A stretch of DNA of 33,703 nt from an uncultured Geobacteraceae bacterium (lineage in GTDB: Bacteria; Desulfobacterota; Desulfuromonadia; Geobacterales; CAIOGM01). The position numbers and the translations under genes are program-made. This document shows, one piece after another, positions 18,370-26,197 of this stretch (the first letter of the stretch is position 1; each line of letters begins with the position of its first letter). The DNA lies in contig CAIUUR010000012.1 of assembly GCA_903902345.1 (NCBI GenBank), forward strand, positions 1-33,703, written 5' to 3'. Below the pieces are notes generated by a model. It did not search any database. It saw only the letters and a list, made by a program, of their open reading frames with translations, and was not told the DNA's origin.

Positions 18370-19449
18370 TCAATCCTTTTCCATGATCACCGTCCGGATG
18401 GGGAACGGAATTTCGACTCCCCGCTCCCGGAACCGCTTGATGATGAGTGAGTTGACCTGGTCGGTCACACTGAAAAGCTCCGCATACTCGGCCACCCAGA
18501 AAAAGAGGGTCATACTGAGGGAACTCTCCCCGAAGGAGGCAAAATAAGAGTCAGGAGGGGGATCGTCCAGTACTTCTTCCACCTCGCGGGCCGCCTCCAC
18601 GAGGAGCTGCTTCACCTGTTCCACGTCGCTGCCGTAGCCAACCCCCACGTTGATCCTCCCCCTGATCCGGAAATCGGGAAAGGCCTGGTTGACCACCATG
18701 GTGTTGCAGAGGTCCGAGTTGGGTATAACCAGAAGCATATTGTCCAGGGTCTTGATCCTGGTGCTCCGGAGTCCGATATCCGCCACGTCTCCGATCTGAC
18801 CTCCCGCCAGCTGAATCCGGTCACCGATCCGGAAGGGGCGGTCCAGTATGAGGGTAAATCCGGAAATCACCTGGGCCAGGGTATCCTTCGCCGCCATGCC
18901 GATGGCCAGGGAGCCGATTCCCAGAGCAGTGACGAAGGAGAGGATATCATAGTTGAAGTGCTTCAGCGTGATCATCAGGGCGGTGATGATCAGAAACAGG
19001 GTCCCCAGCTTCTCCGCCAGAGGGGCCAACTGCCGATCCACCCCTTCATGACCTACCTCCGCCATCCTGCCGGCATACCACTCCAGCAATTCGTGAAGAG
19101 AGCGGTACGCTATATTGGTGCAGATGACAATATTGACGATGAAGAGGAACCCGACGGCCACCGGAGTGACCTTGTCCGGAAGCGGCAGTACCCGAACCGC
19201 CAGGAACAACCCCGCGGTGAGCACCAGCAGTGAAACGGGTGGAGTGATCCTGCTCAGCACCCGGTCATCCAGATCGGTTTTGGTAACGGCCGTGAACCGG
19301 GGTCCCCAGACCGTAAGTATATATTTAACCACCTGGGAGAGTACCCAGAACAGGGCTATGATGAGGAGCGCCAGCAGCCCCTCCTTGAGCCAGAGGAGGA
19401 GTGTGCTCTCCCCTTCCTGCACCAGGAACAGGTTGAAAAATCTAGACAC
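18370..19449 (-). CDS. MscS-family mechanosensitive ion channel
   Basis: The protein has three to four predicted membrane segments in its first 200 residues, followed by the MscS beta and alpha/beta domains. Landmarks are the glycine/alanine-rich pore helix around ALGIGSLAIGMAAKDTLAQ, then the upper-beta domain (DRPFRIGDRIQL) and the stretch ending VIPNSDL. Such channels open under membrane tension to release solutes. I chose GTG at 19449 (359 residues) because AGGG lies six bases upstream and it overlaps the purB stop by only eight bases; an ATG at 19479 would add ten residues but lacks a ribosome binding site. The gene sits between purB and purL with a four-base gap to purL, so it is almost certainly part of that transcript. 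Confidence 0.9.
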   Translation of the reverse strand: MSRFFNLFLVQEGESTLLLWLKEGLLALLIIALFWVLSQVVKYILTVWGPRFTAVTKTDLDDRVLSRITPPVSLLVLTAGLFLAVRVLPLPDKVTPVAVGFLFIVNIVICTNIAYRSLHELLEWYAGRMAEVGHEGVDRQLAPLAEKLGTLFLIITALMITLKHFNYDILSFVTALGIGSLAIGMAAKDTLAQVISGFTLILDRPFRIGDRIQLAGGQIGDVADIGLRSTRIKTLDNMLLVIPNSDLCNTMVVNQAFPDFRIRGRINVGVGYGSDVEQVKQLLVEAAREVEEVLDDPPPDSYFASFGESSLSMTLFFWVAEYAELFSVTDQVNSLIIKRFRERGVEIPFPIRTVIMEKD

Positions 19450-20737
19450 CGAAGACCCTGCCAAAGATGGTCCCCACATGCTTGAGATGATAGTTAAGAT
19501 CGAAGGACTCGCGAATCTTCACCTCCCCCAGCGCTCCCACCACCTCCTGGTCGGCCAGGAGCTCCGTCTGGAAATCCTTTCCTTGGTCCCAGACCTTCAT
19601 GGCGTTCTTCTGGACCAACCGGTAGGCGTCTTCCCGGGAGACCCCCGATTGGGTCAGATCCAGGAGAATCTTCTGGGAGAATACCAGTCCCTTCATCTGA
19701 TTAAGGTTGCGCAGCATATTCTCTGGGTAGACGACCAGATTCCTGATCAGGCCGTTCAGGCGGCGGAGGGAGAAGTCCAGGGCCACCGTGGCATCCGGTG
19801 CGATGTATCGCTCCACTGAAGAGTGGGAGATGTCGCGCTCATGCCAGAGTGCGACGTTCTCCAGAGCAGGGATGCAGAAGGAACGGATATAGCGGGCCTG
19901 ACCGGTAAGATTCTCCGAGAGGATCGGGTTGCGCTTGTGGGGCATGGCCGACGATCCTTTTTGCCCTTTGCTGAAGAACTCTTCGACTTCCAGCACCTCG
20001 GTCCGCTGCAGGTGCCGGATCTCCACAACGATCCGCTCCATGGAGGAGGCGATGATGGCAAGAGTACAGAAATATTCGGCGTGGCGGTCCCGGGGGATGA
20101 CCTGGGTGGAGACCGGTTCGGGCACCAGTCCCATCTTCCGGCAGACATACTCTTCCACATAGGGATCGATATTGGCGAAGGTCCCCACCGCCCCGGAGAT
20201 GGCGCCGGTGGCGATAGTTACTCGGGCCGCGGCCAGCCTCCTCCGGTTGCGTTCCATCTCGGCATACCAGGACGCGAGTTTGAGACCGAAGGTTACCGGT
20301 TCGGCATGAATGCCGTGAGAACGACCGATGCAGACCGTATCCTTATGCTCCAGAGCCCTGACCTTGAGGGATTCCAGGAGCATATCCAGGTCTGCCAGCA
20401 GTTCGTCGGCTGCCTGGGTCAACTGCACGGAGAGGCAGGTATCCAGTACATCGGATGAGGTCATCCCCTGGTGGATGAAACGGGCCTCGGGACCCACATA
20501 CTCGGCCACGGAGGTGAGAAAGGCAATGACATCATGCTTCACCTCGGCCTCAATGACGTCAATACGGGCGATGTCGAAATTTCCCTTCTCCCGGATGATC
20601 GGCACAACCTCTTTGGGGATAACCCCCAACTCGGCCTGTGCTTCGCAGGCCAGGGTTTCGATCTCCAACCAGATACGGAAGCGGTTTTCCGGCTCCCAGA
20701 TGTTCGCCATCTCCTGGCGGGTATAGCGTGGAATCAT
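19442..20737 (-). CDS. purB: Adenylosuccinate lyase
   Basis: PurB cleaves SAICAR to AICAR and adenylosuccinate to AMP. The fumarase-superfamily signature GSSAMPHKRNP is at residues 261-271 and includes the flexible catalytic-serine loop. The other conserved blocks are QGMTSSDVLDT (90-100) and RSHGIHAEPVTFG (139-151), which contains the general-acid histidine. Length 431 is normal for the Bacillus-type enzyme. The start has GGAG seven bases upstream, and a heptamer repeat array begins right behind that site. It is the first gene of the compact purine cluster and overlaps the following MscS gene. Confidence 0.96.
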   Translation of the reverse strand: MIPRYTRQEMANIWEPENRFRIWLEIETLACEAQAELGVIPKEVVPIIREKGNFDIARIDVIEAEVKHDVIAFLTSVAEYVGPEARFIHQGMTSSDVLDTCLSVQLTQAADELLADLDMLLESLKVRALEHKDTVCIGRSHGIHAEPVTFGLKLASWYAEMERNRRRLAAARVTIATGAISGAVGTFANIDPYVEEYVCRKMGLVPEPVSTQVIPRDRHAEYFCTLAIIASSMERIVVEIRHLQRTEVLEVEEFFSKGQKGSSAMPHKRNPILSENLTGQARYIRSFCIPALENVALWHERDISHSSVERYIAPDATVALDFSLRRLNGLIRNLVVYPENMLRNLNQMKGLVFSQKILLDLTQSGVSREDAYRLVQKNAMKVWDQGKDFQTELLADQEVVGALGEVKIRESFDLNYHLKHVGTIFGRVFGV

Positions 20738-20748
20738 AAAAAATCTCC

Positions 20749-20852
20749 GGTCTAGGTTCTAGGTTCAAGGTTCGGGGTTCAAGGTTCTAAGTTCTAGGTT
20801 CTGGGTTCGGGGTTCTACTTTCAAGGTTCGGTGCTCAGGGGTCACGGTTTGA
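20749..20852. repeat. Degenerate heptanucleotide tandem array, consensus GGTTCNN
   Basis: Reading the plus strand from 20749, about 15 units follow in strict seven-base phase. Most are GGTTCTA, GGTTCAA or GGTTCGG; the first is six bases long (GGTCTA). Units after about 20832 (TGCTCAG, GGGTCAC, GGTTTGA) are decayed. The array fills most of the 138 bases between the WalJ-like gene and purB and ends about four bases from the purB Shine-Dalgarno, so it would lie in the purB leader or promoter (as NNGAACC on the transcribed strand). Confidence 0.85.
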
Positions 20853-20875
20853 ACATTGAAGCTGGAACCCGGATT

Positions 20876-21640
20876 TTAAAACAACGCCGTTGTCGTATGC
20901 TGGCTCCCCACGGCCACGCGAGGTGAACAACTGGTGACACCGTCCAGGAGGTTACGCGCCTCCCCCAGAGCAAGATCAGGGTGGTTGTTCACCTCCGATA
21001 GATGGGCCAAAAAGAGAGACTCCAGCCCTTCGTGGAGCAATTCAGACAAAAGCATGCGGGATTCGACATTGGAAAGATGACCATGACGGGATTTGATCCG
21101 CTGTTTGAGATGCCAGGGATAGGGCCCGTTCAACAACATCTCCTCGTCATGGTTGAATTCCAGCACCAGAGAACGGCAACGCTTCAGTTTATCCTGAACA
21201 AGACGGGTCGCCACCCCGAGATCGGTGGCACAGCCCGCAATCCCCTCGCGACTTTCCAGGGTAAAACCGACGGGGTCAACAGTATCATGGGTTATGGGGA
21301 ACGGGTCTATGAGAAGGTCACGAAAGGTAAAGGAGTGTCCCGCCTCGAACTCCATGATCTCGCACTTTTTCAGCAGGGGCTCAATCTGCCGTGCCGTGGG
21401 ATAACTAACCACCACCGGAATCTTCAGCCGCCGAGCCAGGGTTCCCACACTCCGGATATGGTCAGTATGCTCGTGGGTCACCAGGATGGCGTTGAGAGTT
21501 TCCGGATCCACCCCCACCGCGGCAAGACGTGTCGTTAGTTCCTTGGCGGAAAGTCCGGCATCGATGAGGAGACGGGTATCACCCGACTCCAGATAGACCG
21601 AATTCCCCTTACTCCCGCTTGCCAAAAGGCAGACCCGCAC
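20876..21640 (-). CDS. WalJ/YycJ-like metallo-beta-lactamase-fold hydrolase
   Basis: The protein has the MBL-fold metal site: HEHTDH (His56, His58, Asp60, His61), a later ITHDTVDPVGF, then NHDEEML and an AHLSEVNN histidine near the C-terminus. The opening MRVCLLASGSKGNSVYLE-type strand is typical of the YycJ/WalJ/VicX group, thought to be phosphodiesterases or nucleases acting in the cytoplasm. I chose GTG at 21640 (254 residues), since homologues begin at this strand and GGAGG lies five bases upstream; ATG at 21652 adds four residues, and a still longer frame reaches 21733. It stands 99 bases after galE, behind a possible promoter. The substrate is unknown. Confidence 0.85.
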   Translation of the reverse strand: MRVCLLASGSKGNSVYLESGDTRLLIDAGLSAKELTTRLAAVGVDPETLNAILVTHEHTDHIRSVGTLARRLKIPVVVSYPTARQIEPLLKKCEIMEFEAGHSFTFRDLLIDPFPITHDTVDPVGFTLESREGIAGCATDLGVATRLVQDKLKRCRSLVLEFNHDEEMLLNGPYPWHLKQRIKSRHGHLSNVESRMLLSELLHEGLESLFLAHLSEVNNHPDLALGEARNLLDGVTSCSPRVAVGSQHTTTALF

Positions 21641-21703
21641 CAACCCCTCCATTATGTGAGGTAGAATCCGTAGTGGCGTTATTGCCGGTGAAACAATCCT
21701 CCC

Positions 21704-21733
21704 TTTATAACAGGAATAGCGAGGTGGGTTCAA
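21704..21733 (-). promoter_or_regulatory. Candidate promoter between galE and the WalJ-like gene
   Basis: On the minus strand TTGAAC (21728-21733) and TATAAA (21704-21709) are 18 bases apart, with four and five of six consensus matches. Transcription would start near 21697, leaving a leader of about 57 bases. It could drive the WalJ-like gene and possibly the purine cluster separately from prsKR-galE. Confidence 0.35.
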
Positions 21734-21739
21734 GGATAA

Positions 21740-24119
<2,380 letters not shown>

Positions 24120-24151
24120 TATCCCTCCTGTTCCTGCGCGGTGTGGGTTCA

Positions 24152-26197
24152 TCAAGGTAGCGGCAACCAGACGGTAAAGGCTGTCCCTTTTCCCTGATTG
24201 CTGGTTACCTCAATCCGTCCCTGATGACTCTCCACGATCTGTTTGCACTGGTAGAGTCCAATGCCGAGGCCGCTTTTTTTAGTTGTTTGAAAGGGGGTGA
24301 AGAGTTTCCTCCGGAGGAATTCGTCGTCGATGCCGCATCCTCCGTCGATAACGGTGACGTAGGGGAATTCCGTCAACCCGACCTCCACCGAGACGGGACC
24401 CTTCCCGTCGGTGGCTTCCACGGCGTTGAGAATCAGATTCAGGAATACCTTCTGGATTTCCTGGCGGTCCACAATAACGGAAACCGACATCCCGAAGATC
24501 GTGACTTCGCATCGTTTTACCAATGCCACGGTCTCCTTGACCAGGTGCATCAGATCGGTTTTTACCCGGGGAAGCCCTTTCTTGTCGGGTATCGTGTTCA
24601 AACGGGAAATAAGTGTGTTCATCTTGCTGACCGTGTTCCCCAGGGTCTCCAGCATATCCTGCTGGAATTCGGCGTCGGAAATATAGGTACGTGCATTATC
24701 CAGGGTCAGACTGATGGTATAGACAAGGTTTTTGAGATCGTGAATGATGAACGCTGCAATCCTTCCCAGGGCTTCCATCTCCTTGGCCAGCGCCAGTTCG
24801 TCGGTGAGCCGCATATTGAGAAGGGCGGAGGAGGCCTGTTGCGCCAGGGTCTGCATCAGGTCGTAATCTTCGTAGGTATATACTTCGCTGGAGTTTATCT
24901 GCGTCCCCAGCATGATGAAACCATCCAGGTGATTATTACTCACCAGGGGAATCAGAAAACGGAGTCCCTTTGAGCGAAACCACCCCTCCAGCTGTGGAGT
25001 CGCCACACCTTCACCTTCCAGCAGGCAGACAACTTTTCGCTCGTCAGACAGTTTCATTACCAAAGAATCACCGGCGGCAAAGGAAACCGTGGCGACGTCC
25101 AGCTCAATGGAGGCGGCATGGAAGTAGTTTTTCTTTTCCACATCGCAGAGGAAGAGAGCCGCACTTCCCATGCCGAAGGTGTCACCGTAGACGGAAAGAA
25201 TGGCCATCAACACTTCCTGGTTACTATGCGCCGAAGAGATCCGTTCAGTGAATTCCAGCCATTGGCTTCGGTAATCATGTTTGTTCTTGTAGAAGTTACG
25301 GGTGAGGAACAGGATCAGCTTCCGCTTGGCCTTGTCGGAGAGGATAAAAAGAAATAGTCCGACGGCGGCAAGGAAGGAAACCATGACCAGCGCCGATCGC
25401 TGGAATGACTCTCCGAAATACTGTAGACCTTCACCCATGAGACCGATAAATATGAGGTAAATGCCAATGGCCAGAAGGACGAAGGAGTGATAAGCCATCT
25501 GTCGCGAGAGGACGACCTTGACACCGGTGCCGCCCCGCATATGAGAGTAGGCGATAAGCACCACCGCCACGATGGTGGCCAGAGACCTGACCGGAACCAG
25601 ATGCATATCCAGGGTCCGATAAAGCAATCCCTGGCTGTAGTAAAAAATAAGAATGGCCAGCAGTCCGCCGGTACCCACGACTTCCAATCGGATCTTCCAG
25701 CGAGAAACCGAGGACGCGCCAGTGAGGGTTGCTTCGAGATTAATCAGCGCGATGACCAGGGTTATCATGATCCCCAGATAAAAATAGAAGCCGGTGGTCG
25801 TGAGGAACAGCATCTGCTCGGTATGGAAATCGGGGGAATAGAAAAAACGGCTTACGGGAAGATAGAGAGCAACACCCATAAGGGAAAACGTCAGGGGAAA
25901 GATGATCTTCTGTACAAGGGGAACTGCGGAAAGCTGTCGTTCACGGGAAAAGACCAGACTGTAAAAAAGCCAGGCAGGAGCCAAACAGGACTCGGCAAAG
26001 AGGGCGAGCTGCTTCCAGAGATACAGGTTTTTCGGGAAATAGTGCGCGCAGAAATCAGCCCCTTCCAGGGTAGCGGTAATGAGCAGGGCCACGAACAACA
26101 CGTTGCTGGCAAGGGAGCGGTCCTTGCGCAGCAGCGCACCCAGGGGCCAGGCCAGAGCGAGAGAAATAGCAGTTATGGTAAGAAAGGATGCAAGCAT
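24152..26197 (-). CDS. prsK: PrsK-type membrane sensor histidine kinase
   Basis: The N-terminal 280 residues carry about eight hydrophobic segments, followed by a GAF-like domain (about 305-465) and a kinase core. The phosphoacceptor is His486 in FIIHDLKNL, the N-box reads LNLILNAVEA, the G1-box VIDGGCGID and the G2-box KSGLGIGL. This order of many-pass sensor, GAF and HATPase, together with the downstream PrsR, fits the PrsK family of PEP-CTERM/exopolysaccharide kinases (681 residues; family about 690). The ribosome binding site is weak. The gene begins 39 bases after rnr and ends 32 bases before prsR. The signal sensed is unknown. Confidence 0.88.
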   Translation of the reverse strand: MLASFLTITAISLALAWPLGALLRKDRSLASNVLFVALLITATLEGADFCAHYFPKNLYLWKQLALFAESCLAPAWLFYSLVFSRERQLSAVPLVQKIIFPLTFSLMGVALYLPVSRFFYSPDFHTEQMLFLTTTGFYFYLGIMITLVIALINLEATLTGASSVSRWKIRLEVVGTGGLLAILIFYYSQGLLYRTLDMHLVPVRSLATIVAVVLIAYSHMRGGTGVKVVLSRQMAYHSFVLLAIGIYLIFIGLMGEGLQYFGESFQRSALVMVSFLAAVGLFLFILSDKAKRKLILFLTRNFYKNKHDYRSQWLEFTERISSAHSNQEVLMAILSVYGDTFGMGSAALFLCDVEKKNYFHAASIELDVATVSFAAGDSLVMKLSDERKVVCLLEGEGVATPQLEGWFRSKGLRFLIPLVSNNHLDGFIMLGTQINSSEVYTYEDYDLMQTLAQQASSALLNMRLTDELALAKEMEALGRIAAFIIHDLKNLVYTISLTLDNARTYISDAEFQQDMLETLGNTVSKMNTLISRLNTIPDKKGLPRVKTDLMHLVKETVALVKRCEVTIFGMSVSVIVDRQEIQKVFLNLILNAVEATDGKGPVSVEVGLTEFPYVTVIDGGCGIDDEFLRRKLFTPFQTTKKSGLGIGLYQCKQIVESHQGRIEVTSNQGKGTAFTVWLPLP

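Follow-up and report, generated by a model that had tools for sequence, protein, structure and literature searches.

A heptamer array beside purB in an uncultured Geobacteraceae genome is probably one arm of a paired spacer element found throughout the genus

The window considered here is a 33,703-nt stretch of the draft genome of an uncultured Geobacteraceae bacterium (G000). The spacer upstream of its adenylosuccinate lyase gene, purB, is largely taken up by a repeat element with two arms in inverted orientation. The features of the locus are as follows.

19442 to 20737, minus strand: purB, adenylosuccinate lyase (TIGR00928 at 521.8 bits, cut-off 326.2)
20738 to 20875, minus strand: 138-nt spacer between purB and the MBL-fold gene upstream of it, most of it occupied by the element
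20744 to 20748, minus strand: purB Shine-Dalgarno, GGAGA in the sense direction, followed by TTTTTT and ATG (read from the sequence)
20755 to 20831, plus strand: long arm of GGTTCNR heptamers, with nine exact GGTTC, one AGTTC and one CTTTC (TRF and slot scan)
20832 to 20849, no strand: centre running from arm to arm, degenerate at purB and lacking the GGTTNNAACC centre common at other loci
20850 to 20869, minus strand: short degenerate partner arm, sense GGTTCCAGCTTCAATGTTCA (read from the sequence), with homologous short arms in three of three congeners
20876 to 20878, minus strand: TAA stop of the MBL-fold gene (read from the sequence)
20876 to 21733, minus strand: MBL-fold metallohydrolase-like gene, upstream of purB and co-directional with it (MBL-fold matches below cut-off only)

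Elsewhere in the window, positions 22734 to 26197 hold a response regulator (TIGR02915) and the histidine kinase PrsK (TIGR02916), an XrtA/PEP-CTERM two-component pair that lies upstream of galE and shares its strand.

With purB on the minus strand, the repeat reads as GAACC units in its mRNA. The long arm is the 3' arm in this message and forms a (YNGAACC)n run immediately 5' of the Shine-Dalgarno, while the short arm is the 5' arm, a degenerate (GGTTCNR) run that begins 6 nt past the stop of the MBL-fold gene. The first-pass annotation overlooked both the strand of purB and the inverted partner arm. It described about 15 heptamers ending about four bases from the Shine-Dalgarno; the array does exist and keeps its phase, but only nine of the fifteen 7-bp slots from 20748 to 20852 have an exact GGTTC core (at 20755, 20762, 20769, 20776, 20783, 20797, 20804, 20811 and 20825), and the first exact unit stands 6 nt away. 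The remaining slots hold one AGTTC and five degenerate cores (CGGTC, CTTTC, TGCTC, GGGTC and GGTTT). A 12-slot scan found 10 in-phase near-units in the window versus at most 5 in 20 first-order Markov simulations that used the window's dinucleotide transitions, and TRF called a period-7 array at 20751 to 20829. An Rfam scan of the window gave no match. Promoter and terminator scans found no sigma-70-like promoter or terminator-like site around the purB spacer; the intrinsic-terminator scan covered this spacer alone, where no GC-rich stem leads into a run of T.

The array at purB belongs to a dispersed family and is not a device specific to purB. A search of the genome and its relatives for in-phase runs returned 232 matches to a three-unit pattern in G000 and none to a reversed-pattern control, with 374, 93 and 141 matches in three congeners. 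Across a sample of the phylum, 66 of 297 genomes had at least one three-unit match, mostly few. In a contiguous 0.8-Mb sample of the congener G001, which is only roughly unselected as its contigs were picked for size among those holding arrays, TRF found 32 arrays of period 7, the majority belonging to the GTTC/GAAC family. Arrays were mapped from a boundary pattern and fetched stretches, and genes were called by a codon-usage caller without curation. The G000 assembly is a draft in 568 contigs (contamination 4.28%), and array lengths may be collapsed in draft assemblies. Two G000 arrays lie at contig ends (C356, 2 to 55; C391, 13 to 94) with the identical flank TAAAGCA, which makes it probable that arrays interrupt the assembly. 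Many GGTTC arrays of one distant genome (G050, e.g., locus L332) share the prefix AAAATAC, which suggests that they derive from a copied element rather than from independent arrays. Other heptamers, including TTTCACC/CACCATT, CCCCTCA, GAATTAC and GGTGAAA, occur in co-directional spacers of G000, G001 and G003 (e.g., L242, L233 and L238), sometimes adjoining GGTTC arms; they number about 19 runs against 130 GTTC/GAAC runs. A literature search on the exact sequences found no paper that names the GGTTCNR unit as a dispersed bacterial family.

The arms follow strict rules of strand and position. By the codon-usage gene calls, 207 of 242 arms are intergenic (under 10% coding), and array-bearing spacers are more often co-directional (120 of 137) than are gaps longer than 40 bp in general (70%; p ~1.5e-6). 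Neighboring arrays within 400 bp of each other are convergent in 37 cases and divergent in none. GGTTC-sense arms lie nearer the upstream stop in 72 of 74 cases, at a median of 6 nt past it, versus 23 of 94 for GAACC-sense arms, whose median distance to the downstream start is 21 nt. Among the 120 array-bearing co-directional spacers, 66 are one-armed and 54 two-armed, and all 54 of the latter have the GGTTC arm before the GAACC arm. The general form in mRNA sense is stop, about 6 nt, (GGTTCNR)n, a short centre that is often GGTTNNAACC, (YNGAACC)m, Shine-Dalgarno and start. Part of the position rule may arise because insertions are tolerated between genes and Shine-Dalgarno sites but not within them, an effect inseparable here from selection. 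Arms contain 3 to 20 units with no obvious optimum; the commonest count is four (66 of 242 arms), in a set of arms that had been selected at three units or more.

Sites are largely shared between species, and their contents change. The purB spacer is array-bearing in all four species of the genus, with a long GAACC-sense arm adjoining purB each time and with differing unit sequences. Unit number does change between species, in line with the first-pass annotation, with about 9 to 17 long-arm units at purB. Absence of the array upstream of purB in close relatives had been named as part of an argument against a regulatory role; it was not seen in any of the four congeners but was seen in the closest purB loci outside the genus (88% to 90% identical protein), where about 11 kb held no GGTTC or GAACC pair. 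In the purB-upstream spacer of another Desulfuromonadales genome (L032, 4700 to 5000), there is a different inverted repeat, made up of CACGAAG-like units. G000 and G003 supplied 17 mappable sites, of which 13 are array-bearing in the G001 0.8-Mb sample by our reading of the table, and the remaining four are empty or nearly so. Since about three quarters of sampled sites are common between species, the conservation at purB does not mark it as special. At several loci the long and short arms are swapped between species, e.g., (3,4) versus (12,0) units.

Much of this architecture has a precedent. Rehm et al. 2015 (PMC4692102) described GGGAATC and GGGGA(C/T)T heptamer arrays in Xanthomonas and Nostoc, stressing quadruplexes. 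Those arrays are intergenic, occur preferentially between aligned ORFs and seldom where ORFs diverge, and show a preference for four units. Close to stops the repeat is on the sense strand and close to starts on the antisense strand; there are 70 convergent inverted pairs in Xcc and 75 in Xac, and most sites are common to related species with changed lengths. The arrays described here are likewise dispersed intergenic tandem heptamers at many loci; they obey that strand rule, again prefer aligned ORFs, form convergent inverted pairs and occupy shared sites with changed lengths. The strand rule, pairing and co-directional bias are therefore already known from the Xanthomonas GGGAATC arrays, whereas the unit here is GGTTCNR, in another bacterial lineage, and mostly does not form quadruplexes. 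Four G3 tracts occur in only 25 of 242 arms, and on this ground we rejected quadruplexes as the explanation; we therefore class the family by its paired-heptamer architecture, and the geometry shared with the Xanthomonas arrays cannot rest on quadruplexes alone. We also weighed a likeness of GGTTCAA and GGTTCGA units to the tRNA T-arm but abandoned it, since a final TA is as frequent among units as a final AA. Geobacter metallireducens, probably within the same broad lineage, carries paired tandem hepta- and octanucleotide sites (PMC2700814) that have been proposed, with regard to regulation, as binding sites of global regulators. These too are short tandem units (MTYCTGA, GTTGCTYN and others, in three to five copies) at several dozen loci, with opposite-strand pairs at variable distance, but the units differ, and GGTTC does not appear in the main text of that paper. 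The TAACTGA heptamers of Beggiatoaceae and cyanobacteria (MacGregor, PMC4679880) similarly stand directly upstream of start codons, in sense orientation, and vary between strains by indels in 7-nt steps; in contrast to GGTTCNR arrays, they have an invariant unit and nearly no inverted partners (one indirect repeat).

Our preferred reading, at a probability of roughly 0.6, is that the purB array is one arm of a genus-wide paired heptamer element that evolves by slippage and inverted copying and is tolerated in spacers. Its geometry, genus-wide spread, occupation of the purB site in four species, rapid turnover of units and interarm covariation at position 6 (below) are all observed. Replication slippage within an arm would change the number of units, and occasional copying from arm to arm, by template switching in a hairpin, may keep the two arms alike. 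Such elements would survive mainly where a co-directional spacer tolerates them, which would place them between stop and Shine-Dalgarno. Two-armed copies can very probably form an intercistronic mRNA hairpin, which could mildly insulate or stabilize the neighboring messages; at purB in the window's species the predictions point to neither a strong hairpin nor purB-specific control. A unit is identical to its neighbor in 36% of cases versus 13% expected from pooled frequencies, as slippage predicts, and in line with the slippage that the first-pass annotation had allowed for. Slippage alone does not account for the composition of the units. Among 963 interior units, variation is 1% to 3% at positions 2 to 5 and 57% at position 6, and 99% carry a purine at position 7, so the array is no simple homogenized microsatellite, in agreement with the first-pass annotation, and some sequence-specific constraint acts on the core; this is the chief feature that the slippage model fails to explain. 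The contrast between core and position 6 is overstated because arrays were found by their core, and anchoring on GTTC understates core variation; a looser, less anchor-dependent analysis ranked the variability of positions in the same way. Nor would a neutral palindrome process alone predict that the inverted order is never reversed.

The most serious competitor, which we still consider unlikely, is an intercistronic RNA hairpin under selection that acts like a ribosome termination structure, limiting re-initiation or stabilizing segments of operon mRNA. Two-armed spacers have a median folding z of −5.4 against dinucleotide shuffles (array-free spacers, −0.4). The bases at position 6 are complementary between arms in 0.64 of cases versus 0.42 in locus-level shuffles, and this complementarity drops when the arms are shifted by one unit; positions 7 and 1 have no such excess. 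A selected hairpin would also suit the median start of GGTTC arms 6 nt past the stop, as a stable structure centered about 5 nt past stops lowered re-initiation in a synthetic operon of E. coli (PMC7518266). However, the 66 one-armed spacers do not fold beyond their shuffles, and the 40 nt past the stop reach −6 kcal/mol or lower in 76% of array spacers, hardly above the 70% of array-free ones. The excess at position 6 consists, in small numbers, of Watson-Crick pairs without enrichment of G-U, a pattern that would fit interarm copying as well as, or better than, selection on RNA, and the covariation is not significant in G000 alone (p 0.13). The purB spacer folds strongly in three congeners (predicted z −3.5 to −6.4), but in the window's own species its fold does not surpass that of shuffled sequence (z −0.89 and −0.45). 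The published termination structures, moreover, are not repeat-based and are depleted within operons, whereas GGTTCNR elements are enriched between co-directional genes.

The constraint on the core could also come from something that reads it. We regard as improbable, though worth stating, a candidate protein or RNA factor that would recognize the GTTC core in 7-bp phase at both ends of the spacer, making the arms a genome-wide layer of intercistronic control or insulation; on that view the GGGAATC arrays of Xanthomonas would offer a parallel, resting on something other than the quadruplex. Somewhat less probable still is a multi-site DNA- or RNA-binding array for a putative protein reading the same core and phase. 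Such a protein would explain the strong conservation of the core and the purine rule, which keep their ranking in the less anchor-dependent analysis, and in G. metallireducens paired opposite-strand tandem sites have been ascribed to unknown global regulators (PMC2700814). Against this, there is no candidate protein, the arrays occur at unrelated genes, their unit number shows no optimum over its range, and the core statistic is partly circular.

A regulatory array specific to purB, in which unit number would tune leader length or the spacing to a promoter as the first-pass annotation proposed, is very improbable: the occupied site and the long adjoining arm in all four species would favor it, but like arrays stand in well over 100 other spacers of these genomes, no promoter-like site was found around the purB spacer, and the nearest relatives outside the genus lack the array. 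Equally disfavored are REP-like palindromes moved by a Y1 (RAYT) transposase, since, although the elements are palindromic, dispersed and intergenic and each genome has one to five Y1_Tnp genes, no arrays flank ten Y1 genes in stretches of 2.4 to 4 kb, there is no fixed-length unit, and array content differs at shared sites.

The significance lies in finding the known architecture with a mostly non-quadruplex unit, which argues for a more general cause of such arrays, whether a hairpin, inverted copying or spacer tolerance. The sites shared by four congeners, with their differing contents, make the origin and turnover of heptamer arrays testable.
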